IMG/VR virus record: IMGVR_UViG_3300033273_000078
Coordinates: 1-47,810 of that record
DNA: 47,810 nucleotides
Direction: 5' to 3' (one strand)
Origin: a virus
The notes under the pieces are model-generated. The model was not told where the DNA came from. It searched no databases and worked only from the letters and a program-made list of their open reading frames with translations. Both the position numbers and the translations under genes were made by a program. Positions 10,009 to 38,922 of the stretch are shown in pieces (the stretch's first letter is position 1; each line of letters starts with the position of its first letter).

Positions 10009-10485
10009 CTACCTTTGTATTTTATCTAATGGAAATGCGATAAATTCTTGTGGCATGAGCTTAACAGGTTTTTTCTTTTCGTCAAGCCATTCCTGCGGGA
10101 CATCCTTGTCCGCATACAGGAATCCATGTTTAGCGCACCAGTCGCCGTAGCTGGACTTTGCACCCTTACGGAGTTTAGCCCTGCTGTTTGTAAATACAAA
10201 ACGAATGTCTATCTCTGGGTGTTGCTTCTTAATTGCTAGATGTTTCATCCTATCCTCTGGCGTAAACCGTCCTTTGGTTTCGATGATGATTCCATTCGGA
10301 AGCAAGAAGTCTGGAGTGTATGTCCTGTACGCCAGATCTTCCCACTCAATTTTAAGACATTCATACTTTGCATTACACTTTCGTTCTTTCAGGGAATCCA
10401 ATACTAAGTTTTCCAATCCAGAACGATAGCCATGTCGAAGAGCATTAGTCCTTGTCTTGCTCTTCTGTACTCTCTTTATACTCAT
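10009..10485 (-). CDS. T7 endonuclease I-like Holliday junction resolvase
   Basis: A 158-residue protein that closely follows T7 gp3. Catalytic residues visible are E25 (SGLE), D59 (YTPDFLLPNG), E69 and K71 (IIETKG), followed by the conserved DRMKHLAIKKQHPEIDIRFV region and SYGDWCAKHG near residue 112. The T7 enzyme resolves branched DNA and degrades host DNA. Its N-terminus overlaps the end of the exonuclease gene by 41 nt, so the two nucleases are coupled. The call is firm from the linear motif match. Confidence 0.93.
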   Translation of the reverse strand: MSIKRVQKSKTRTNALRHGYRSGLENLVLDSLKERKCNAKYECLKIEWEDLAYRTYTPDFLLPNGIIIETKGRFTPEDRMKHLAIKKQHPEIDIRFVFTNSRAKLRKGAKSSYGDWCAKHGFLYADKDVPQEWLDEKKKPVKLMPQEFIAFPLDKIQR

Positions 10486-16999: not shown

Positions 17000-17277
17000 G
17001 CGACTGACCTCAACTGTTTTGTTCTGAAGAACCCATCGTACTGCGGGTACATATCATGGAAATGTCTAGCGTAATAGGCTCGATGATTATTACTTAACTT
17101 AAATGGTTTACCTGTTGTTTCGATATCCGTATGCCAGCGGATACGTTCAAACACAGCATTGACACTGTAGTTTTTACGTCCTGTATTGATTACATCAAAT
17201 GTAAACTTCACGAAGAGTTCCCACACTTGTGGGTTCTCCTTGTGAAACTTATGGAATTCATCTTGCAGTTTACTCAT
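16996..17277 (-). CDS. conserved phage hypothetical protein
   Basis: A 93-residue protein starting at ATG 17277 (MSKLQDEFHKFHKENPQVWE), coupled to the HTH gene's stop. The longer frame to 17406 lies inside that gene and is rejected. The pattern NYSVNAVFERIRWHTDIET, SNNHRAYYARHFHDMYP and GFFRTK is one I recall from many phage hypothetical proteins near replication genes. No biochemical role is known to me. Confidence 0.68.
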   Translation of the reverse strand: MSKLQDEFHKFHKENPQVWELFVKFTFDVINTGRKNYSVNAVFERIRWHTDIETTGKPFKLSNNHRAYYARHFHDMYPQYDGFFRTKQLRSVA

Positions 17278-17632
17278 TGACTGCCTCCTCTTGTTCCATT
17301 TGCTCACGCTGTTCATCCGTGAGCTTCCATAGCTTAGTGATAGTCCAGTGACCAAAGGGTACAGCCCCTTGGTACTCACGGTCAAATGCAGATGGCTTCT
17401 TGCCACCTTTCGCTATTGTATCAATGCGTTTCTGGGCAATGTCTTGCCTGTCACGATATGGGATATCCATACCCCGCTTACGCAAAGATGTAACCTTCGC
17501 TTTGGTTGATGCATGTGAGATACCAATCTTCAAAGATATCTCCTCGAAAGTTAAGCCCTCTTTGTAGAGCTTAACAAGCTCGTCTATTTGCTCTTGTGTC
17601 CAATGAACAAGAGGTCTTTTTGCTTTAGCCAT
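17270..17632 (-). CDS. helix-turn-helix DNA-binding protein
   Basis: A 120-residue protein. Residues about 10-55 (WTQEQIDELVKLYKEGLTFE and EEISLKIGISHASTKAKVTS) match a Myb/GcrA-like HTH. The C-terminal half is basic, then acidic. It overlaps primase by 8 nt. It could be a transcriptional regulator of the phage and is the only clear HTH protein in the leftward block, so a candidate for lysis/lysogeny control, but nothing here proves that. Confidence 0.7.
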   Translation of the reverse strand: MAKAKRPLVHWTQEQIDELVKLYKEGLTFEEISLKIGISHASTKAKVTSLRKRGMDIPYRDRQDIAQKRIDTIAKGGKKPSAFDREYQGAVPFGHWTITKLWKLTDEQREQMEQEEAVNE

Positions 17633-21411: not shown

Positions 21412-21595
21412 CTCTAATCTCCTTGATTGTTGACCATGTATCAGATTGGTGGTTCATCTTGTCTAGTTTAATTGCGAGATCACGAAGCTCCTGCTTCGCA
21501 AGCTCACGCCCTTCTGCATCCCCATGCTCCATAGTGTGAATGAGGAGATTCATTGCTGTACACCATGAAGGTGTTGCGTCGATGTATTTAGTCAT
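21404..21595 (-). CDS. hypothetical protein
   Basis: A 63-residue helical protein (MTKYIDATPSWCTAMNLLIH). Eight-nt overlaps with both neighbours indicate a coupled operon. No family recognised. Confidence 0.6.
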   Translation of the reverse strand: MTKYIDATPSWCTAMNLLIHTMEHGDAEGRELAKQELRDLAIKLDKMNHQSDTWSTIKEIRDA

Positions 21596-21818
21596 TGACA
21601 GATACCTCTGTGATTTCGTAGTCGTTCATTCCAATGCAATCAATTAGATTGTCGGGATCTTCTTCAATGAAGTAATCCTTGATGTGTTCATCTAAAATTG
21701 CATCTGTCTTAGACAGGTCATACCTGTAGCGAATTTCGTCATACACATCTGGATCAAAGTCATCTAGCGTGAAGCTCACTTCACACTGCATCTTCACAGT
21801 AATTCTCTTTGTACTCAT
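21588..21818 (-). CDS. acidic hypothetical protein
   Basis: A 76-residue protein, MSTKRITVKMQCEVSFTLDD then strongly acidic, with a C-terminal strand (YEITEVSV). The layout is loosely like the two DpnD-like neighbours. First gene downstream of the terminator at 21835-21860, so it should have its own promoter or rely on read-through. I saw no consensus promoter in the 56-bp gap. Confidence 0.6.
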   Translation of the reverse strand: MSTKRITVKMQCEVSFTLDDFDPDVYDEIRYRYDLSKTDAILDEHIKDYFIEEDPDNLIDCIGMNDYEITEVSVND

Positions 21819-21834
21819 AGTTCATTTCCTTATT

Positions 21835-21860
21835 TAAAAAATCCCCCACCGAAGTGGGGG
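21835..21860 (-). terminator. rho-independent terminator after the DUF932-type gene
   Basis: CCCCCAC-CGAA-GTGGGGG on the + strand (CTTCGG-type loop on the minus strand), followed on the minus strand by six T. Lies 14 nt after the stop of the 21875-22744 gene. Confidence 0.9.
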
Positions 21861-21874
21861 CATTGGAGAAAGTA

Positions 21875-22744
21875 CTAAGCGGCAAGCCCAGTCAACTGTT
21901 GGAAGGCTCTGCCTTGCACGATACTCGATACTTGATCTTCGATCCGTATCTGCTTACGAGCGAGGTCTGTACCCTCACGGCCAGTGACATGAGTACCGAT
22001 GTGAGTCAGTACATTGTACAAACGGTAGCCGGTGTCACCGAGACTGGAATAGTCATTCCAGATGCGAGCGAACTCCTCAACAGATTTCTCATTGACCTTG
22101 ATACCTGAAGCAACACGATAGGTTGCTACCTCAGCACGGGCAAAGGCAATTGCCTGATCCTTAGTGACACGAGTATCCATCATCTGTTTGTACAGATGAG
22201 CTTCATTCTCTAAGCGAGAAGGATACTCAGCAACGACAGCACCGAGCTTCTCAGGATCAGAAAGCATTGTATGCTTCTGCTTCACAGCGAGACGCTCACC
22301 GACAGTGACCATGCCATTGGTGCAAGCCAGTCGCATAATCATGCAACGGATATCACGGCGGAATGACATATCGTGTGAGTCGATGATACGCATCTTCATC
22401 TGTGTGGCTTCACCAACGATACGTTCGTAGTCGTACTGAGCGAACACAATGTCAGCAGAGAATGCCGCACCACACCGAGCCACACCGAACTTGATCTTGA
22501 GATCAGATGTATCGACACCGGACTCAGCGATACCCTCACGGAAAGAATCCCACATATGTTTGTAATTCACAGGGTTGTGATTCTTACCTGATGGCTTATC
22601 GTTGATAAGCTCATCCGTGTTAGGGTTGACGATCCAATACTGATCAGGAACTTGCATACCCTTACGGTACACAGGCTCACGAATAGGATCGAAGTCCAGT
22701 TCAACTGGAAGTGCAGGGACAGAATCAAAGTTTTCGTATTTCAT
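21875..22744 (-). CDS. DUF932 family phage/plasmid protein
   Basis: A 289-residue protein. The start ATG 22744 has AAGGAG 6 nt upstream. The frame upstream to 22762 is rejected. The conserved centre of the family is visible: a DSHD-x-SFRR segment and RLACTNGMV. DUF932 proteins are common on plasmids, ICEs and phages, and I know of no proven biochemistry. A stand-alone unit ending at a terminator and preceded by a 42-bp gap, so probably a well expressed early gene. Confidence 0.8.
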   Translation of the reverse strand: MKYENFDSVPALPVELDFDPIREPVYRKGMQVPDQYWIVNPNTDELINDKPSGKNHNPVNYKHMWDSFREGIAESGVDTSDLKIKFGVARCGAAFSADIVFAQYDYERIVGEATQMKMRIIDSHDMSFRRDIRCMIMRLACTNGMVTVGERLAVKQKHTMLSDPEKLGAVVAEYPSRLENEAHLYKQMMDTRVTKDQAIAFARAEVATYRVASGIKVNEKSVEEFARIWNDYSSLGDTGYRLYNVLTHIGTHVTGREGTDLARKQIRIEDQVSSIVQGRAFQQLTGLAA

Positions 22745-22786
22745 AACTTGCTCCTTAAGCAAATGTAAATTTAGTAATTTAAAATA

Positions 22787-22966
22787 TTAATCTAAAGCAA
22801 CAGCGTAGTCAACTGTTGTTTCACAATCAGCAAGACGCATCTTGTCAGATGCATCGCTGTCAGCGACAGAGCGTAGCTTGTCAATGACAAGATCAATCGC
22901 TTCGTCTACATTGTTACAATCATCCACATAGAATGTGTGGTATGAGCCAATAGCTAGTTTAACCAT
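22787..22966 (-). CDS. 59-residue acidic protein
   Basis: GGAGG precedes ATG 22966. The product MVKLAIGSYHTFYVDDCNNV is small, acidic and of unknown function. The DNA contains several short perfect inverted repeats (for example CTTGTC-AAT-GACAAG and GCATCT-TGTC-AGATGC), like the denser array at 25.3-26.6 kb. Confidence 0.65.
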   Translation of the reverse strand: MVKLAIGSYHTFYVDDCNNVDEAIDLVIDKLRSVADSDASDKMRLADCETTVDYAVALD

Positions 22967-22969
22967 CAG

Positions 22970-23119
22970 TTAATTTCCTCCAGTTATGGTAAGTAAAAGA
23001 CGGGTAGCTTGTTCAGCTACCCAGATTGTGCCGAAGAATATAAACACTCCGACTAACGAGTGGATAAACCTTTTGACAAAGGCTTTCCGTATATCAATAT
23101 CTTGATCATCAAGCTTCAC
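22970..23119 (-). CDS. 49-residue single-pass membrane protein
   Basis: GTG start at 23119 with GGAG 6 nt upstream. After a charged N-terminus, residues about 19-36 (HSLVGVFIFFGTIWVA) form one transmembrane helix, followed by a short tail. An 8-bp hairpin (GGGTAGCT / AGCTACCC) lies inside the gene. It could be a small holin-like or superinfection protein, but the location among early genes does not favour lysis. Confidence 0.6.
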   Translation of the reverse strand: MKLDDQDIDIRKAFVKRFIHSLVGVFIFFGTIWVAEQATRLLLTITGGN

Positions 23120-23120
23120 G

Positions 23121-23837
23121 TTACACTCCAACTGCAATCGCTTCAGGATTATTTACAATGAAAGGATTGTCAAGATCTTTGACAGCCCTACCTTTTGCAC
23201 GTAGGCCAATGATGACACGCCCAGCCTGCACATTGTCAATGTCAGAACGATCACCGTCAATGACGACACGCTTCATGAATCGCATGGGCAAACCATGCCT
23301 GAAGACCACTGATATTGGAACATCTGTCTTCAGAGCTTCGTTGACTTGCTTCGCAAAGTCAGGACTCGCAGAGAAGCTGAACATCAGCTTGTAGTTAGGC
23401 GGAGTGCGGCCAATCCTGTGGGGTAGCTTGGTGTAGTCATACAGGAATGCATCAGCAAACTCACCACCGATATCGAGATGATTTTCCCACGGGATATCAG
23501 AGACAGTGTTCAATCTGAACACAGGCTTTTTGCCTTGCCGCTGACATAACTTGATAAAGTTATGCATCTCGTGACGAAGTTTCGTCAGGAAACTGTCTCG
23601 ATCAGACAGCCACCAGTCAGTCTTAGCTTGTCTGGAATCTTGGACAGAGTCCATGTTACCTCTGCCTGACGTATTGAGGCACGGCTCTTTGCACATAGCG
23701 AGATCCTGTGCAGGACAAATCCGCTTGTCTGATGGACGCATTGACAGTGAAGCAATGCGAACCTGATCACTACCGAGTATCGACTTGGTAGACTTAGCAA
23801 TCTTGGGATTGCCACCATTTGTATTTAACAAATCCAT
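23121..23837 (-). CDS. conserved phage protein, DUF7227-like
   Basis: A 238-residue protein. The N-terminal Cys cluster C41-x7-C49-x3-C53 (CPAQDLAMCKEPCLNTSGRG), then NMDSVQDSRQAKTDWWLSDR and RLNTVSDIPWE, matches a phage family I remember with the same CPG-C-x3-C-L-N-T-AGRG pattern. The family function is unknown. Cysteines could bind metal or Fe-S. The C-terminal region is alpha/beta. Next gene starts 2 nt downstream. Confidence 0.68.
   Translation of the reverse strand: MDLLNTNGGNPKIAKSTKSILGSDQVRIASLSMRPSDKRICPAQDLAMCKEPCLNTSGRGNMDSVQDSRQAKTDWWLSDRDSFLTKLRHEMHNFIKLCQRQGKKPVFRLNTVSDIPWENHLDIGGEFADAFLYDYTKLPHRIGRTPPNYKLMFSFSASPDFAKQVNEALKTDVPISVVFRHGLPMRFMKRVVIDGDRSDIDNVQAGRVIIGLRAKGRAVKDLDNPFIVNNPEAIAVGV
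23571..23588. repeat. palindromic repeat copy 1 (TGACGAA-GT-TTCGTCA)
   Basis: 18 of the 21 bases shared with the copies at 24791, 25461 and 26250. It lies inside the DUF7227-like gene. A second hairpin (CATAACTT-GATA-AAGTTATG, 23545-23564) sits just beside it. Confidence 0.75.
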
Positions 23838-23850
23838 AGTTCATTTCTCC

Positions 23851-24120
23851 TTACGGGTGGTTCGCTTCAGCGGCGGCTTCAGCCCAATCTTGCAACGTCT
23901 TTCTGTGGAAATTTGGTGCGAAAGATTGCACGGAATCATCACACTCAGCCAATTTCGTAAGAACTTCTTCAAGTTCTTCGACTAGCTCAGCATTGAAATG
24001 ATACCGAGCTTTCAGCTTGATAATTAAACACTGAGCATCTGCCGCATCAGACCACGATGAATACAAAGCCATCTTGAAATCATCAGGCTCACCGAACACA
24101 TTTAACAAATCGTTTTTCAT
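23851..24120 (-). CDS. hypothetical protein
   Basis: An 89-residue protein from ATG 24120, with GGAG 7 nt upstream. The longer frame to 24162 runs into the terminator and is rejected. Helical and acidic (ELVEELEEVLTKLAECDDS). An 8-bp perfect inverted repeat (AAGAACTT-CTTC-AAGTTCTT) lies in the gene at 23959-23978. Confidence 0.6.
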   Translation of the reverse strand: MKNDLLNVFGEPDDFKMALYSSWSDAADAQCLIIKLKARYHFNAELVEELEEVLTKLAECDDSVQSFAPNFHRKTLQDWAEAAAEANHP

Positions 24121-24135
24121 TTGAACTCTCCAGAT

Positions 24136-24159
24136 AAAAAGAACCCCACCGAAGTGGGG
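24136..24159 (-). terminator. rho-independent terminator
   Basis: CCCCAC-CGAA-GTGGGG stem-loop (24144-24159) with T tract on the minus strand, 20 nt after the stop of the 24179 gene. Nearly the same cassette as at 21835-21860. Confidence 0.88.
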
Positions 24160-24178
24160 CAAATGCCGAGGGAAACTA

Positions 24179-24694
24179 TTAGCTAGCTCTGGCTAGCTTC
24201 GCTTTGCGATCTGACATGATGATGCCCACATTCGCACGGATGTTTTGGATGTTGGACATACTCCACCAGTCGCCGGTGTGTTGCTTTGGAAAAGCATACA
24301 CATTTGCTGTGACTCTGCCGAACGTATCGAGTACAACTCGATCCGCATAGTGGATGGACTCTTCAGTCAATTCCGCATCCACAAAGGACGAAGTCCAGTA
24401 CGGATTGTATGTGACGGGTATTGAGTACAATACCTCCCACTCTCCGAGATTGGCAGGCCGAATCTCTCTGCCACGGAATGGCTTGAACCTTACGGTATCA
24501 AGCAACGTGCCACGGATAAACGCATGGACATTCTTGACACGCTCTTTGAGTACACGCTGTCGCCCTGCTTCATGGACTACGAACTCAGCATGGCCTAAGA
24601 CCACAGTCTCAGCATGGCCGAGTACATAGCCAGATTCAGAATCACGGATGCTCCACTTGCCATTGTTCAGGTTACGATACACTTCTACATTCAT
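24179..24694 (-). CDS. hypothetical protein
   Basis: A 171-residue protein from ATG 24694, with GGAGG 8 nt upstream. The longer frame to 24709 is rejected. A local duplication VLGHAETVVLGHAEFVV is near residues 23-39. Mixed alpha/beta, with no catalytic motif. It forms its own unit between the attenuator-like element at 24749-24789 and the terminator at 24136. A 7-bp inverted repeat marks the stop region (24181-24198). Confidence 0.62.
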   Translation of the reverse strand: MNVEVYRNLNNGKWSIRDSESGYVLGHAETVVLGHAEFVVHEAGRQRVLKERVKNVHAFIRGTLLDTVRFKPFRGREIRPANLGEWEVLYSIPVTYNPYWTSSFVDAELTEESIHYADRVVLDTFGRVTANVYAFPKQHTGDWWSMSNIQNIRANVGIIMSDRKAKLARAS

Positions 24695-24748
24695 GGTGTT
24701 GACCTCCATTTGGTCGGGTTGTCGCTTGTGTTATTCCATTAGAGACAT

Positions 24749-24789
24749 AAAAAAATCGGGGTGTCAACCCCCTTTATGGGGGTTGTTTT
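24749..24789 (-). terminator. overlapping alternative hairpins, attenuator-like
   Basis: On the minus strand an 8-bp hairpin (CAACCCCC-ATAAA-GGGGGTTG) is followed by a second stem (GGGGT-TGAC-ACCCC) whose 5' arm is the 3' arm of the first. A G-A and seven T then follow. The second is a standard terminator. The first, formed earlier, would block it. In the + direction the first stem is followed by TTTT. Confidence 0.75.
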
Positions 24790-24790
24790 A

Positions 24791-24811
24791 GTGACGAACA
24801 TTCGTCAGTAG
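24791..24811. repeat. palindromic repeat copy 2 (TGACGAA-CA-TTCGTCA)
   Basis: 21-bp element with the two central bases changed (CA for GT), stem intact. It overlaps the stop codon of the 24805-25047 gene. Confidence 0.78.
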
Positions 24812-25047
24812 CGTCTCTCCTTTCGCTGATCCCAGTACGCATTCCACATCACATCCCACAGACCTAAGTCCATGCCTAAACCACCCAGAGTCAGAGCCTC
24901 ACGGTCGAGTTCTGCATAGCGCATCTTATTGTATGCTTTGGTGTCAGCATCTACGTTATCCTTGGATAACTTGTATCTGTACCACTCAGTCAGGTTTTTA
25001 ACCTGAATGAAACGATCAATGATTACTTTTCTTTCACGTTTAGTCAT
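24805..25047 (-). CDS. basic hypothetical protein
   Basis: An 80-residue protein starting MTKRERKVIIDRFIQVKNLT, helical, with a tryptophan-rich end (LWDVMWNAYWDQRKERRY). The DNA includes hairpins GTTATCC-TT-GGATAAC (24955-24970) and TCAGGTT-TTT-AACCTGA (24990-25006). It ends at the palindromic repeat and the attenuator-like element. Confidence 0.6.
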   Translation of the reverse strand: MTKRERKVIIDRFIQVKNLTEWYRYKLSKDNVDADTKAYNKMRYAELDREALTLGGLGMDLGLWDVMWNAYWDQRKERRY

Positions 25048-25050
25048 GGC

Positions 25051-25254
25051 TTAAGCCTCCTCTCCGAACACGGCATCCCACTCTTCTGGAGTGACACCGG
25101 AAATTAAAAACTCTCTGTCTTCAGGACAGAGTTCTGGCATGGCATCCTGTATGAAGCCATGGCCTGACATCCACTCTCTGAGCTTATGCTCAGTGACAGG
25201 AATGTCTCTGGTATGTTCAATACCAGTCAGTTTAGAAGTTTTTGTAACTAACAT
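25051..25254 (-). CDS. conserved small phage/plasmid protein
   Basis: A 67-residue protein. The layout LTGIEHTRDIPVTEHKLREW, QDAMPEL, EDREFLISGVTPEEWDAVFG is one I recognise from many phages and plasmids as an uncharacterised conserved protein. The function is unknown to me. Three short perfect hairpins lie in it (25113-25131, 25188-25203, 25208-25226). Confidence 0.68.
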   Translation of the reverse strand: MLVTKTSKLTGIEHTRDIPVTEHKLREWMSGHGFIQDAMPELCPEDREFLISGVTPEEWDAVFGEEA

Positions 25255-25280
25255 AATAATTTACTCCGTAAATTTGGGAC

Positions 25281-25306
25281 GAAAAAAAGGGGACTTATGT
25301 CCCCTT
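25281..25306 (-). terminator. rho-independent terminator after the hairpin-array gene
   Basis: AAGGGGAC-TTAT-GTCCCCTT (8-bp stem, 25287-25306), followed on the minus strand by a T tract. It isolates the 25327-26043 gene as its own unit. Confidence 0.9.
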
Positions 25307-25319
25307 GTGGTCAGGAAAA

Positions 25320-26018
25320 CTAAGTCTTACGACTTAGCTTCCAGAATGTCCAGAACCTTATCGAAGATAAGGTCAACATCGAGATCATTCTTACGAATGA
25401 TGTCAGCCAGTTTGACAGCTACGCTGTCCTCAGTGTACTCAGTCTTTGACTGAGTTTGTTGTGACGAAGTTTCGTCAGTAGCTTTCTGCTTCGCAGAAGT
25501 TTTAGGCTCAGTCTTCGACTGAGACTTTGACTTTGACTTACTAGAAGACGAAGTCTTCGTAGTAGTCTTGGGCTGTTCTGACTTCGTCAGAGAGCGGTAT
25601 TGATCCGTAAGGATCTTCGCTGAAGTCGAAGACTTCATCTTGCCATCTTTGATGGCAGTCTGGATTGCATCCCAGTTCTCAGCTAGCTTCATCAGGACAT
25701 ATCTGTCCTGACGAGAGATCGCTTTCAGTGGAGTTTTCTCCACTGCTTTACCGAACTCTTTGTCAGACTCAAAGAGTCTGCGAGTTTCCAAGATGACATC
25801 TCCGATGTCTTTCATCTCTTTGAGATGTTGACGCTGAGTCTTCTGAATCGCTGTAAAGCGATTTGCGGCCTTGGTCTGACGATCTTTCAGATCGTTGAAC
25901 TCAGCGGAAGCTGAGATCTTTGTACCTTGCGAAGCAAGGACTCTCCGTTGACGGCCTTTGGCCGACTTGCTTTTTCTAGCCAACTTGTTGGCTGAGTTGT
26001 TCTCAAAATCTACGATTT
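25320..26018. repeat. array of about 25 short perfect inverted repeats within a gene
   Basis: Stems of 5-8 bp and loops mostly of 3-4 nt. Positions: 25320-25337, 25355-25373, 25384-25401, 25414-25428, 25437-25455, 25462-25477, 25484-25498, 25507-25523, 25544-25558, 25577-25591, 25602-25615, 25621-25637, 25641-25657, 25692-25711, 25726-25745, 25764-25780, 25795-25809, 25813-25827, 25846-25863, 25879-25895, 25900-25915, 25925-25939, 25952-25964, 25978-25993 and 26006-26018. Loop classes repeat: GAA/TTC (8), AAA/TTT (5), GTAA/TTAC (4), GTA/TAC (2). Most close with C-G. Starts fall in all three codon phases. Confidence 0.9.
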
Positions 26019-26043
26019 CGGCGGTGTTTTTTGAAGCGTTCAT
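25327..26043 (-). CDS. low-complexity basic protein encoded by the hairpin array
   Basis: A 238-residue protein, the first gene of the leftward block, with AGAGGAAAG before the ATG. Residues 1-45 are Lys/Arg-rich. Residues about 58-125 (KEMKDIGDVILETRRLFESD, FGKAVEKTPLKAISRQDRYV) are helical and loosely resemble DUF3102-type phage proteins. Residues about 155-205 are a Ser/Lys/Thr/Gln low-complexity linker, and residues 206-238 an amphipathic helix. The whole coding sequence is built of short perfect inverted repeats, so the protein sequence may be shaped by the nucleic-acid structure. A role in replication initiation or as an RNA/DNA scaffold is possible but unproven. Confidence 0.65.
   Translation of the reverse strand: MNASKNTAEIVDFENNSANKLARKSKSAKGRQRRVLASQGTKISASAEFNDLKDRQTKAANRFTAIQKTQRQHLKEMKDIGDVILETRRLFESDKEFGKAVEKTPLKAISRQDRYVLMKLAENWDAIQTAIKDGKMKSSTSAKILTDQYRSLTKSEQPKTTTKTSSSSKSKSKSQSKTEPKTSAKQKATDETSSQQTQSKTEYTEDSVAVKLADIIRKNDLDVDLIFDKVLDILEAKS
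25461..25481. repeat. palindromic repeat copy 3 (TGACGAA-GT-TTCGTCA)
   Basis: 21 bases identical to the copy at 26250. It is one element of the in-gene hairpin array. Confidence 0.8.
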
Positions 26044-26052
26044 TTTGCTTTC

Positions 26053-26145
26053 CTCTATCTATTTGTTTCACTATAAGAGGATTTTTATTCCCCTCTCACT
26101 TCGTTCGAGGGGTAAAAATACTCTGTGAAACATAATAGATGAGAG
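26053..26145. repeat. long imperfect stem-loop upstream of the leftward gene
   Basis: Outer arms pair CTCT/ATCTATT with AATAGAT/GAGAG, then TGTTTCAC with GTGAAACA, AGAG with CTCT, TTTTTA with TAAAAA and CCCCTC with GAGGGG around a short loop. About 35 pairs with small bulges. It occupies the 5' leader of the 25327-26043 transcript. Confidence 0.8.
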
Positions 26146-26161
26146 TCAGGTCGGCTGTCAA
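26132..26161 (-). promoter_or_regulatory. candidate leftward promoter
   Basis: Minus strand TTGACA (26161-26156), 18-bp spacer, TATTAT (26137-26132). It is the only good match upstream of the leftward block. It differs from the 16-bp-spaced family and overlaps the stem-loop. Confidence 0.5.
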
Positions 26162-26599
26162 CCAGCCCAATTTTCCAGACCAGCTAGTACTACACAAATA
26201 TATGCCAACAATAGTTGTCATAGTATTTGTTGTTGTAGTACTGCTGTTAGTGACGAAGTTTCGTCAGTAGAGTTGATATGAAATATCAAAGTGACCAGAA
26301 AGATGCATGGGTCGTTACTGTGTAACGACTCGGTGGGGATCTACCTGTTGAAACAGCAAAAATGCCTAGCAAATGATATTAAATCATTTGTTGAGCAGAG
26401 CTAAGCCTATGATTTACAACGTAAATCTATGCGCAGTGTGAACACATAGCGTAGCGCAGAGCTTCACACGCAGTCAGCGAGTGCATTATGCACGGGTAGA
26501 CAGTGCGTTTGTGGGGGCAGGGGCGAGGGACACCCCCCGTTAGGGGGTACGTGTATATAGCCTAATACACAGAAGGGGAAAATGAAGTGTTAACCACTT
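26151..26599. repeat. continuation of the inverted-repeat array in non-coding DNA
   Basis: Perfect or near-perfect stems at 26153-26167, 26181-26246 (long, AGTACTACA / TGTAGTACT), 26251-26266, 26273-26289 (TTGATAT-GAA-ATATCAA), 26311-26329 (GTCGTTAC-TGT-GTAACGAC), 26345-26356, 26370-26390 (CAAATGAT / ATCATTTG), 26411-26427 (GATTTAC-AAC-GTAAATC), 26430-26458, 26481-26493, 26532-26548, 26551-26570 and 26585-26599. The array stops before the first rightward promoter. Confidence 0.82.
26250..26270. repeat. palindromic repeat copy 4 (TGACGAA-GT-TTCGTCA)
   Basis: Identical over 21 bp to the copy at 25461 and located in non-coding DNA, which shows the repeat is not maintained by protein coding. Confidence 0.82.
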
Positions 26600-35118: not shown

Positions 35119-35302
35119 ATTAAAACCGATGATCACAACGAAGCGTCAATGGGACGCTTTCTGTGAGTACTTAGACATCATGATATCCGAACAGCAGACT
35201 AAACTAGAGAAGTCGGACAACATAGTATCCATTCATCGAGCACAGGGAGCGATAGACGCTCTACGTTATCTTAAATATCTCAGAGAAGAGGCATCCGAAT
35301 AA
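35078..35302 (+). CDS. small helical protein between portal and next gene
   Basis: A 74-residue protein overlapping the portal end by 41 nt and the next start by 1 nt (TAATG). WDAFCEYLDIMISEQQTKLE and IHRAQGAIDALRYLKYLREE are two amphipathic helices. Perhaps a minor head or assembly factor. No family recognised. Confidence 0.65.
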   Translation: MNNQQELRKQAVSKLKPMITTKRQWDAFCEYLDIMISEQQTKLEKSDNIVSIHRAQGAIDALRYLKYLREEASE

Positions 35303-38300
35303 TGTCAGCAATAGGTCGATTACTTGGCAGACAAATGGGAGATGTATTCGGTGAATACGTCCTGAAGTCACGTGAGTCTGTGGAGCAATCCGCCAGAGGT
35401 CGAACCAAGCCAAAGCCTGCCGCATCATATATCAAAGAGATGCAAAGGGAAGGTGTGCCGACAGAAGAGATGAGGGACTTAGGATTACTTGACGATTACG
35501 ATCCTAAGACTGGGCTGGATCGTCAGAAGCTAATGACAAAAGAGGAGATGCTCAGTGAGATTGATCGTCGTCGAGCGGAGCGATTAGAAAGTCGTGGTGT
35601 ATATCGAGGCGATATACCTCCTCCGATAGGAGAAGAGGAGACAGTTAATCCACGCTTCGTCGGAGGTAAAAAAATAATTAAGAAGTCTCCTCCTCCTCAG
35701 TTTGAGTCGCCTGAGCCGATAATAGGGCCAGAATCTAAACAAAGAACTCCAATGACTCGTTATAATATTCATCAACAAGACATTGGTGATCCAGATACAT
35801 ATGAAGAAATTACGTATGGTTTGCGGGAAGGTCCAGAAGGAAAGAGAGCCGCTAGACGTATTGGAGAAGTTTCAGATCGTTCAGTTGCTGGATTTTATTC
35901 CAGATCGCCAGACGAAATAGGTCTTCATTTCCCAGAAAGGGATCAATTATTCCATCTCCGTTTGAATCGTGGAAAAACAACAGACGGTGAAGGTGTAACT
36001 AACTTATTAGAATTGCAATCTGATATCCAGCAACGTGCGCAAAAAGGAACTCCATTAGAATTAGAAGCGGAAGAAGCAAGACCATTTGCCACTGCAAAGC
36101 CTGAGTATAGAGATCCAAATCTTCCAATGGTACATAACTGGGAAGTACTGGGAGTCAAGGAAGCTGTCAGAAGAGCAGTTCAAAACGGTGATCGATATTT
36201 AGCAATTACACCCGGCAGAGAAATTGGTAGAGCGGTAGGGGCAGTTGAAGCCATTTCAACTGAAGAGCCGTTGAAAGCTATACTTGCAAGAAGTCAATCA
36301 GGCAAAATTGATATAATTTTTACGGGTCTTGATATACGTAAAGAATTTGCAGATTTGCAAAATATAGATGATTTAGATATCGTTAATCCCAAGATGTCTC
36401 CAGATGTCGAAGAGATATTATCTGGTATGGGGTACGAAGAATATTTAAATAATCCAATGGAATTTTCTGGATATTTAGATGATATCGAAAACGCTAGATT
36501 TGAAAATAATTTATCTATTTTAGCTCGTGCGATGGTTACTGTTCAGTTTTATGACTTTGGATATAAAACTCTTGATGATGAAGGCATCCGGTACACAGAA
36601 AAGTTAGTTGACGATTTCATGGATTCACTCGTTGATTATGCTGTTGATGTCGGTGGTGATGTAGAGGATTTCGTAGCAGAAATAACTGAAGATCCAATCC
36701 AAGTTTATTCATTAGTATTGCCTGAGTCTATTATCGATAGAATGCTTACTATCCGTTCCTCACTAGAAGATTCAGAAGCTATTGCTGACGAAGTTCTTCA
36801 GCGTATGTATACAGATGAACAAGTTGCCAAAGCATTAAATATAAATGTCGGTGAAGTAAGACGTTTAGCTGATAGCGGGGAAACAGTTGAAATTACACCA
36901 GAAATGGAATTTGGTGGAGAGGGCGTTATTGATTTTTACGATAAACAACTTATCAGTGAAAAGCGTCTTCAGAAATACGGTGCTCCACTTGTAGAAATAG
37001 AACAAACTCGCCCAGACGGAACTACTGTTACTACAAATGCACTAGACCTAAAAACATTTATAGATGAAAAGAAGAAAAACAAAAAAGCAAAAATACCATA
37101 TTCTCTTTACAGTGCAGTTCTTGGTATTCCCCTTGCAGGAAAATTAGGGTCGATGGCACTTTCACAGGAACAAACAACAAACGAGGAGCCGCAAGCAATG
37201 GCTGAGGGCGGAATGTTAGACGAAGGTGGTACAGTCGATCCTGTATCAGGTAATGATGTACCGGCAGGTTCTCTGCAAGAAGAAGTCCGTGATGACATCG
37301 ATGCGAAGCTCAGCGAAGGTGAATTTGTTTTCCCTGCTGACGTAGTCCGTTATATTGGTCTTGATCGTCTTATGGAGCTTCGCCAAGAAGCGAAACAAGG
37401 TCTGCAGAAGATGAATGACATGGGGCAGATGGGTAATTCTGAAGAAGCCATTATGCCTGATACAGTCCCGCACGAGGCGATGGAATTCCAACAAGGTGGT
37501 ATAGTACCTGCATCTAATATTCCTTCGTTCTACGGACAGCAACAGCCTTCCTACATGCAACCCGGTGCAGTACAGACTGCTGTTCGTTATGCTGGACAAC
37601 AACAAGCTCCAACACAATCTGTTTATCAACCTTCACAGTTTCAACAGGTTGCACCAATCGGACCTCAGCCAGTTCCCCAGCCTGTACAGCCAACTCAACC
37701 AACACAGCCAGCGCAGGCACCAATTCAGCAAGTAGCACCGACAGCTAAAGTACCATATGAAATGAAGCGGTTTAGGAATGCTGAAGGTAATGTTATTTAC
37801 ATACCTTTTATGAGTGGTGTCCCACAATTCCCTATTCCTGAAGGCTATTCAGAACAGAGTCGGATGGAAGCGATTACTGGCGAAGAAGAAACAACAACTG
37901 AGCCAACACCTACTGAAACTAAAGTAGAAACTGCATCTGTTAGAGATGATGGTGGAGATGATGGCATAGATACCACTACAACGGGAACTGCAAAGACAGA
38001 TCCTGTGATGGGTATTGCTCGTGGATTCGCTGAAACTAATCCAAATAGTACCGTCGCTACGAACGTCGATAAATATAAATCAGCACAGATAAAAGGACTC
38101 GCTGGTGCGGCGTTAGGTTTGTTTTCAGGAAATATCTTAAGTACTGGTATTGCATTGTACCGCATGAACCAGAAGATGGATGAATATAAGAATGCCGCAT
38201 TTGAAGGATTGCCAGCTCCAGTCAAGCAACAGCTTCAAGTGACTACCGGAGCAGGACAAAAAGAATTTATAACATCTGATCAATTTACAGATGCTCAAGC

Positions 38301-38922
38301 ACAGGAAGCATTTAAAGAAGCAAAAGCGGCTGGTGCATCTGATGCATATGCAACGGCACTTGCAGTTTCGACAGGAGCTTTCCGTGGTGAAGGGACCGGC
38401 ATGGATCTCGGTGCATATGAACGTGCTGTTTCAGAAGGATTGCGAACTGACGTTGGCACTGCACAAACTGCAATGCTGGCAGAGCAAGAGTTAGGACTCT
38501 TTGATTCAGCAGAAGATCGTGCGGCATTTTATGGACAAGAGGCGCAAACAATTGAAAGAGATGAAGGACTTTCAAATGATGAGGCTGTTAGTGTAGCGCA
38601 ACAAAGATCTAAAACAGTAGAGGCTGTAGGAGCTACCGCAAGTCAAGATCCATCAGAAGAAGGTAGTATGGGAGTAACTCAACGCGGGCGAGATATCACT
38701 GCTGAAGTAAGAGCGGAACTTGCGGAGCGAGGATTGAGTACGTCAACAGATGATCAAGATTCAGAAGATTCTGGAGTCAGTGGTGGCGCGGGAACTTCCA
38801 GTGGAGAATCTGCAAGTGATCTAAGTGGAACAGGGTATGACGGTGGTTTTTCATCTCCATTCTCCAAAGGCGGAGCAGTACAACAAACTAAACGTGCACT
38901 GAAATCATCACGTAAAAAGTGA
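35302..38922 (+). CDS. 1206-residue composite virion-block protein
   Basis: Three parts are visible. Residues 1-130 are charged. Residues about 150-610 form an inserted-looking, AT-richer region whose first part (HLRLNRG, LLELQSDIQQRAQKG, NWEVLGVKEAVRRAVQNGDR) resembles an uncharacterised domain of large phage polyvalent proteins. Residues about 640-720 hold MAEGGMLDEGGTVDPVSGND then LSEGEFVFPADVVRYIG, a pattern I know from marine phage structural-block proteins. A Gln/Pro-rich linker, an Ala/Gly hydrophobic stretch (about 928-950) and a Ser/Gly tail ending SSPFSKGGAVQQ follow. Lies between portal and scaffold. Virion ejection or scaffold-associated role is inference. Confidence 0.7.
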   Translation: MSAIGRLLGRQMGDVFGEYVLKSRESVEQSARGRTKPKPAASYIKEMQREGVPTEEMRDLGLLDDYDPKTGLDRQKLMTKEEMLSEIDRRRAERLESRGVYRGDIPPPIGEEETVNPRFVGGKKIIKKSPPPQFESPEPIIGPESKQRTPMTRYNIHQQDIGDPDTYEEITYGLREGPEGKRAARRIGEVSDRSVAGFYSRSPDEIGLHFPERDQLFHLRLNRGKTTDGEGVTNLLELQSDIQQRAQKGTPLELEAEEARPFATAKPEYRDPNLPMVHNWEVLGVKEAVRRAVQNGDRYLAITPGREIGRAVGAVEAISTEEPLKAILARSQSGKIDIIFTGLDIRKEFADLQNIDDLDIVNPKMSPDVEEILSGMGYEEYLNNPMEFSGYLDDIENARFENNLSILARAMVTVQFYDFGYKTLDDEGIRYTEKLVDDFMDSLVDYAVDVGGDVEDFVAEITEDPIQVYSLVLPESIIDRMLTIRSSLEDSEAIADEVLQRMYTDEQVAKALNINVGEVRRLADSGETVEITPEMEFGGEGVIDFYDKQLISEKRLQKYGAPLVEIEQTRPDGTTVTTNALDLKTFIDEKKKNKKAKIPYSLYSAVLGIPLAGKLGSMALSQEQTTNEEPQAMAEGGMLDEGGTVDPVSGNDVPAGSLQEEVRDDIDAKLSEGEFVFPADVVRYIGLDRLMELRQEAKQGLQKMNDMGQMGNSEEAIMPDTVPHEAMEFQQGGIVPASNIPSFYGQQQPSYMQPGAVQTAVRYAGQQQAPTQSVYQPSQFQQVAPIGPQPVPQPVQPTQPTQPAQAPIQQVAPTAKVPYEMKRFRNAEGNVIYIPFMSGVPQFPIPEGYSEQSRMEAITGEEETTTEPTPTETKVETASVRDDGGDDGIDTTTTGTAKTDPVMGIARGFAETNPNSTVATNVDKYKSAQIKGLAGAALGLFSGNILSTGIALYRMNQKMDEYKNAAFEGLPAPVKQQLQVTTGAGQKEFITSDQFTDAQAQEAFKEAKAAGASDAYATALAVSTGAFRGEGTGMDLGAYERAVSEGLRTDVGTAQTAMLAEQELGLFDSAEDRAAFYGQEAQTIERDEGLSNDEAVSVAQQRSKTVEAVGATASQDPSEEGSMGVTQRGRDITAEVRAELAERGLSTSTDDQDSEDSGVSGGAGTSSGESASDLSGTGYDGGFSSPFSKGGAVQQTKRALKSSRKK

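Follow-up and report, generated by a model that had tools for sequence, protein, structure and literature searches.

The window analysed here, a 47.8-kb viral contig from an HMO-2011-type podovirus, a marine phage, contains dozens of short perfect inverted repeats (stems of 6-8 bp with loops of 3-4 nt and differing sequences) that are maintained by selection and that are densest within the coding sequence of one early gene, termed gene-1. That these stems form an array at the level of the DNA is well supported by sequence comparisons, and the locus is most likely a structure-based nucleoprotein site, probably of the origin type and embedded in the gene of its own binding protein. The chances appear about even that the locus represents an undescribed cis-acting DNA element, in which tens of sequence-unrelated mini-hairpins maintained by selection, along with a long promoter-proximal palindrome and a gene-1 protein recognising their shape, would make up a site of replication or partition in a widespread group of phages. 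None of the papers found in a search of the open literature describes a comparable array, and the paper defining the HMO-2011-type group mentions neither hairpins nor palindromes (PMC9038755).

Genomic setting and extent of the array

The window is composed of a leftward arm (5.5-26 kb) that encodes RNR, a Cas4-type nuclease, endonuclease I, PolA, a DnaB helicase, a primase and an integrase, and a rightward arm (27-47 kb) that includes the terminase, portal and virion genes. The related DNA polymerase (62% identity to the HMO-2011 counterpart), portal and terminase as well as the gene order place the phage among the HMO-2011-type podoviruses. In gene content, the replication arm and the structural arm of the window agree with this group, whereas several of the isolates tested are devoid of both gene-1 and the array. 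Among the other coding regions, 17270-17632 (-) specifies a protein of 120 aa that weakly resembles GcrA, a cell-cycle regulator of alphaproteobacteria (E 1e-4, under the Pfam cut-off), and 35302-38922, located between the portal gene and later virion genes, is an ORF of 1206 aa without Pfam or PHROG match.

Gene-1 (25327-26043, minus strand) is the leading gene of the leftward arm and encodes an early protein of 238 aa. The deduced protein consists of a disordered N-terminus, a confidently predicted all-helical domain at about residues 52-156, a low-complexity linker and a C-terminal helical hairpin, and the all-helical model of the conserved domain reached a mean pLDDT of 95. Relatives of gene-1 were detected neither in Pfam nor in PHROG or the PDB. 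Since PDB structure searches with the predicted fold yielded no significant match (best E > 1), a DNA-binding role of the gene-1 protein is a guess. A likeness to VirB/ParB-like HTH proteins (TM 0.40) was rejected as too weak to count as evidence. The gene is preceded by a sigma-70-type promoter at 26132-26161 (-), TTGACA-18-TATTAT, that matches 11 of the 12 consensus positions and is also present in the related loci L012 and L013. At the gene end, a stem followed by a T run (25280-25306 (-), with the stem at 25287-25306) is kept in L003-L005 and reads as an intrinsic terminator of gene-1.

The first-pass annotation had described a coding region of about 25 perfect stems lying end to end at 25320-26018, and this description was reproduced in its details. 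Twenty-five non-overlapping stems with arms of 5-8 bp and loops of 3-4 nt were found in this interval; they cover 59% of the bases with loops included, where more than half had been claimed, they start in all three codon phases (11/8/6) and they are mostly closed by C-G (19 of the 25), as had also been stated. Codon-preserving shuffling, the check suggested at that time, placed the observed number far above expectation: gene-1 contains 21 stems with an arm of at least 6 bp and a loop of 3-5 nt, compared with a mean of 1.6 (sd 1.2, maximum 6) in 1000 shuffles of the gene, and 11 stems with an arm of at least 7 bp, compared with a mean of 0.4. The excess is confined to loops of 2-5 nt with a peak at 3 nt, and loops of 0-1 nt or of at least 6 nt, which provide an internal negative control, remained at background. 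With respect to arm length, the excess comprises arms of 6-8 bp and is lacking at 9 bp or more. The occurrence of stems in all codon phases and the result of the shuffles rule out a by-product of a repeated peptide. A genome or host that is rich in palindromes in general is ruled out as well, as the rest of the genome is at background and phage CRP-2 is without an array on the same host as an array carrier.

The core of the array extends from 25320 to 25993 and consists of perfect stems with arms of 6-8 bp and loops of 3-4 nt, the centres of which are about 18-53 bp apart. The view of an array in a single gene held only in part, since the stems are dense in gene-1 but continue into the intergenic region at 26251-26427 and into about 4 kb of downstream genes. 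The stem densities between 22 and 27 kb amount to 8, 12, 9, 27 and 7 per kb, with a genome background of about 1.5 per kb. The upstream part of the array is located upstream of the gene-1 promoter, is kept in relatives and comprises five stems (26251-26266, 26273-26289, 26311-26329, 26370-26390 and 26411-26427), three of which have altered arms that still pair in relatives. The downstream tail (21480-25274, with genes at 21875-25254) shows a lower stem density and is weakly conserved in the wider family; one of the downstream genes (23121-23837) contains 10 stems versus 0.9 expected from codon shuffles. An identical, stem-containing 21-mer, GTGACGAAGTTTCGTCAGTAG, is present in gene-1 (25461-25481) and upstream of the promoter (26250-26270). 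This 21-mer is the sole exact long repeat of the array, the stems otherwise not being copies of one another.

Distribution among relatives and maintenance by selection

When the neighbouring gene GP88 was used as the query, a stem peak was revealed at the equivalent place in highly divergent contigs, and the stem-rich ORF at this peak belongs to the gene-1 protein family. Profiles of gene-1 were used to collect 62 distinct homologues, 50 of which, distributed over 19 lineage clusters, showed a stem excess at the threshold of z >= 2.5. The lineage-weighted stem density rises from a background of 0.6 per kb to 11 per kb at -300, dips at -100 to 0, forms a plateau of about 14 per kb through gene-1, is abruptly halved to 5 per kb at the end of the gene and is back at background by +4 kb. 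Across lineages, the array spans gene-1 along with about 1 kb of upstream DNA and fades over 4 kb downstream.

Gene-1 and the array were also found in the cultured phages HMO-2011 (gp74), CRP-1 (gp01) and CRP-345 (gp01). A direct profile comparison of gene-1 with gp74 of HMO-2011 gave a probability of 4%, the profile being shallow, whereas a deeper HMM connected the two proteins (7e-6). In the regions examined of CRP-2, CRP-13, CRP-207, CRP-603 and HTVC033P, both a dense array and a recognised gene-1 are absent. CRP-1 and CRP-2 share the same host, Roseobacter strain FZCC0023, and have related polymerases, and only CRP-1 carries gene-1 and the array. Dense arrays were seen only alongside the gene-1 protein family, with exceptions in the other direction, namely L045 and, as regards the body of gene-1, L081, in which the protein is kept and the stems are missing. 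No array was detected in the Vibrio phages VP2 and VpV262 or in the roseophage SIO1, and a profile search of genome contigs returned just distant high-GC matches without arrays. The relatives without gene-1 (L018-L044) possess unrelated first genes and a stem density that is only mildly raised near GP88 (1.6 versus 0.9 per kb). In HMO-2011 (NC_021864), a near-identical hairpin, agtccg-ACAG-cggact or its complement, recurs at positions 60, 1260, 1926, 53877 and 54807 around the array, which contrasts with the non-repetitive stems elsewhere.

The dip in stem density in front of gene-1 is filled in most lineages by an imperfect palindrome of 90-110 bp. In the window, this palindrome (26053-26145) has arms of about 40 bp and a DNA fold of -24.7 kcal/mol (z -6.25) and reaches from a point just past the promoter -10 box to the Shine-Dalgarno sequence of gene-1. 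A long palindrome is also present in CRP-1, CRP-345 and HMO-2011, and z values of the DNA fold between -4.4 and -9.8 were obtained for 16 of the 25 upstream regions tested, the other nine being without a clear palindrome. Its sequence varies by lineage, whereas the pairing persists, as 199 of 349 double changes are complementary. An apical motif, CCCC-TTGAAC..AAGTGAAA-GGGG, is common to the palindromes of the window's clade, L046, L050 and HMO-2011.

The first-pass annotation had proposed that structure is conserved without sequence identity, and had named compensatory changes in homologues as a check. Both points were confirmed by stems that differ in their arms and are retained through complementary double substitutions. 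Three relatives with about 82% identity of the protein retain most of the stems, many of them altered in both arms, for instance TTCTGC-GAA-GCAGAA / TTCCCC-AAA-GGGGAA and, upstream of the promoter, TCGTTAC-ACA-GTAACGA / TTGGTAC-AAA-GTACCAA / TTGTCAC-TAT-GTGACAA. Comparison of the window with L012 showed 35 double changes in stem pairs, 28 of them complementary, whereas about one double change in all would be expected under independent change, as estimated from the single-change rate. In 176 aligned locus pairs, complementary double changes accounted for 58% in gene-1 (326/557), 51% in the intergenic upstream region (117/228) and 39% downstream, compared with about 33% for random double changes, with all counts derived from pairwise alignments that ignore shared ancestry and from loci that are mostly metagenomic fragments. 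The downstream tail is therefore just weakly kept.

Moreover, synonymous third-position changes in the window's clade were less frequent within stems (13/213, 6%) than outside (66/327, 20%) when the stems were defined in a sequence excluded from the counting of changes, which corresponds to an about threefold slower evolution of synonymous sites within stems in close relatives. Synonymous changes in stems were lower in five of six clades, clade G being not slower, and the slow-down weakens with distance as stems turn over. The slower synonymous sites argue for selection and against a mutational hot spot.

Loop chemistry and the level of folding

The loops mainly consist of three bases, GNA or AAA, enclosed by a C-G pair, and triloops outnumber tetraloops. 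C-G is the closing pair of 130 of the 206 triloops versus 37 expected, whereas G-C closes 9 versus 31 expected. The cGNAg hairpin occurs 41 times (3.2 expected, 13-fold) and its reverse complement 22 times (2.6 expected, 8-fold), giving 63 occurrences of cGNAg/cTNCg with 5.8 expected, so that the likeness to N4-type C-GNA-G mini-hairpins that had been noticed earlier is apt. The N4 early promoters have a short perfect stem of 5-7 bp, a 3-nt loop, C:G closing and a 5'G..3'A loop, all of which the array matches, and C:G closing along with the 5'G...3'A loop permits extrusion at physiological supercoiling (PMC4496689). The preferences for loops and closing pairs also match those of the extraordinarily stable DNA mini-hairpins d(GCGAAGC)/cGNAg. 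The latter are known from in vitro work and from single sites, whereas a naturally selected array of them was not found in the papers searched.

According to an alternative that we consider unlikely, it is the gene-1 mRNA that is densely structured, for protection from RNase or Rho or for control of translation, the long palindrome forming a stem-loop at its 5' end. RNA helices are expected to favour G-U on the transcribed strand. For gene-1 alone, the single-change stems indeed comprise 29 GT versus 12 AC, and purine triloops are over-represented on the sense strand (56:15 versus 591:444, OR 2.8); likewise, the palindrome runs from just past the -10 box to the Shine-Dalgarno sequence, as the stem of a 5' UTR would. 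On the other hand, the kept stems as a whole comprise 28 GT versus 35 AC in a pairwise test, the wider set of loci gave 69 versus 55 in total with 6 versus 11 in the intergenic and 34 versus 32 in the downstream parts, and just 3.8% of the pairs in the long palindrome are G-U when read on the sense strand, a share that is higher on the antisense strand. An early hint of G-U tolerance in a count of near-perfect stems (about 31 GT versus 14 AC) was gone in the cleaner pairwise test. A structured mRNA is also opposed by the prevalence of triloops over tetraloops, by the complete lack of cTTCGg (cUUCGg), by the strand symmetry of GNRA loops (5 sense versus 6 antisense), by the five conserved stems located upstream of the gene-1 promoter and by an Rfam scan at the gathering threshold that returned no matches. 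The loop energies of ViennaRNA are insensitive to the triloop sequence and therefore do not discriminate between the two levels of folding. The RNA scaffold and the shielding of an RNA, both suggested in the first-pass annotation, are disfavoured by the missing general G.U tolerance and by these loop properties.

An action of the hairpins at the DNA rather than the RNA level is favoured because G.T is not generally better tolerated, because the loops are of the DNA type with an N4-like chemistry and because stems are situated upstream of the promoter, while, given the mild sense-strand signals within gene-1, an RNA contribution or folding of the non-template strand only would be conceivable. 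Selected nucleic-acid structure in genes is usually taken as RNA; the coding sequence of gene-1 looks shaped for DNA hairpins, as supported by the compensatory evolution, the DNA-specific loop chemistry and a position that is constant in 19 or more lineages, cultured marine phages among them.

Proposed function and alternative explanations

We tentatively propose, at somewhat less than even probability, that gene-1 and its flanking DNA constitute a module whose DNA folds and is bound by the gene-1 protein according to its shape, and that this module is most likely an origin situated within the gene of the initiator. The hairpins would extrude under negative supercoiling, caused by gyrase or by transcription from the gene-1 promoter, or whenever the region is single-stranded, and might thereby hold the region open or hairpin-punctuated. 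The gene-1 product, as the leading protein of the replication operon, would bind the hairpins by shape and nucleate a nucleoprotein complex, with the loading of helicase and primase and the initiation of replication as the most likely output. Among the roles considered in the first-pass annotation, a lytic origin is possible and represents the leading reading, whereas a packaging signal is unlikely, as the terminase gene is located about 5 kb from the array and the array travels with gene-1.

The replication-initiation reading is based on position, on precedent and on the lack of another recognised initiator, as none was recognised in the phage although a primase, a DnaB-type helicase and PolA are encoded. 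The GC-skew minimum near 25-26 kb would suit an origin, although gene orientation confounds this signal. Inverted-repeat sites within the coding sequence of an early protein, as found here, are a feature of the lambda type: the lambda origin and those of Stx phages consist of inverted-repeat sites in gene O, where the replication region starts (PMC7466680). The array resembles the lambda origin in this placement within an early gene, whereas the lambda iterons are near-identical 19-bp elements bound by sequence, and the arms of the array differ with only the pairing being kept. Similarly, the pT181 double-strand origin in repC and the pSK41 origin in rep lie within the initiator's own gene, where they encode a dispensable linker, and the pT181 origin extrudes a cruciform upon Rep binding (PMC5703833). 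These plasmids possess one cruciform or four Rep boxes, compared with tens of stems in the array, and gene-1 has no detected similarity to Rep proteins.

Several observations weigh against the origin reading. The same enzymes are used for replication by HMO-2011-type phages that lack gene-1, and the array therefore cannot act as the origin throughout the group; in L045, and in L081 for the body of gene-1, the protein is kept without the stems, the long palindrome is unclear in 9 of 25 upstream regions, the stems of clade G are not slower, the gene-1 fold has no significant PDB match and the mild sense-strand signals in gene-1 are usable by an RNA or non-template-strand model. The dispensability of the module in CRP-2, CRP-207 and CRP-603 and the spread of the array beyond gene-1 would both be explained by a partition, regulatory or counter-defence site, at which the gene-1 protein coats the array for purposes other than the start of replication. 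Early phage genes are often counter-defence genes. Such coating might serve segregation, autorepression, supercoil buffering or the decoying of host DNA-structure enzymes; taken jointly, these roles seem somewhat unlikely, and in sequence alone they would look the same as an origin.

Strict Watson-Crick pairing, double changes and small loops that are good for DNA hairpins would also follow if single strands folded during replication and a local template-switching (quasipalindrome-correcting) process made perfect palindromes without function. This mutational origin of the stems is improbable in view of the synonymous stem sites being slower rather than faster, the halt of the arms at 6-8 bp without further growth, the background level in the remainder of each genome, the complete difference between CRP-1 and CRP-2 on one host strain with related polymerases, and the tracking of one gene family by the array across 19 lineages. 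The hairpin geometry, the C-GNA-G loops as in N4 early promoters and the location at the start of the early operon would finally be consistent with N4-type single-stranded hairpin promoters or Frpo-like single-strand promoters for the host or a virion RNA polymerase, an explanation that had been hinted at earlier and that appears highly improbable here. N4 has a handful of promoters that share a conserved sequence and are read by the virion RNA polymerase (PMC4496689), whereas the array comprises dozens of stems within a gene that share none. Furthermore, no RNA polymerase domain, and nothing recognisable as an N4/T7-type enzyme, was found in the large unassigned ORFs scanned, a search of the whole record with PF00940 gave no match with the positive control likewise silent, and a conventional TTGACA promoter is present.

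Under the origin reading, a dominant group of marine phages would gain candidates for both its initiator and its origin. The array makes the in vivo extrusion of DNA-hairpin arrays testable, as well as the use of DNA shape alone as the address of a protein, and CRP-1 with and CRP-2 without the array represent a natural pair for such experiments on the same host. The phage that harbours this cruciform-prone region also encodes a junction resolvase, the T7-type endonuclease I at 10009-10485 (-) (PF05367, E 2e-49), which raises the question of how the two coexist.
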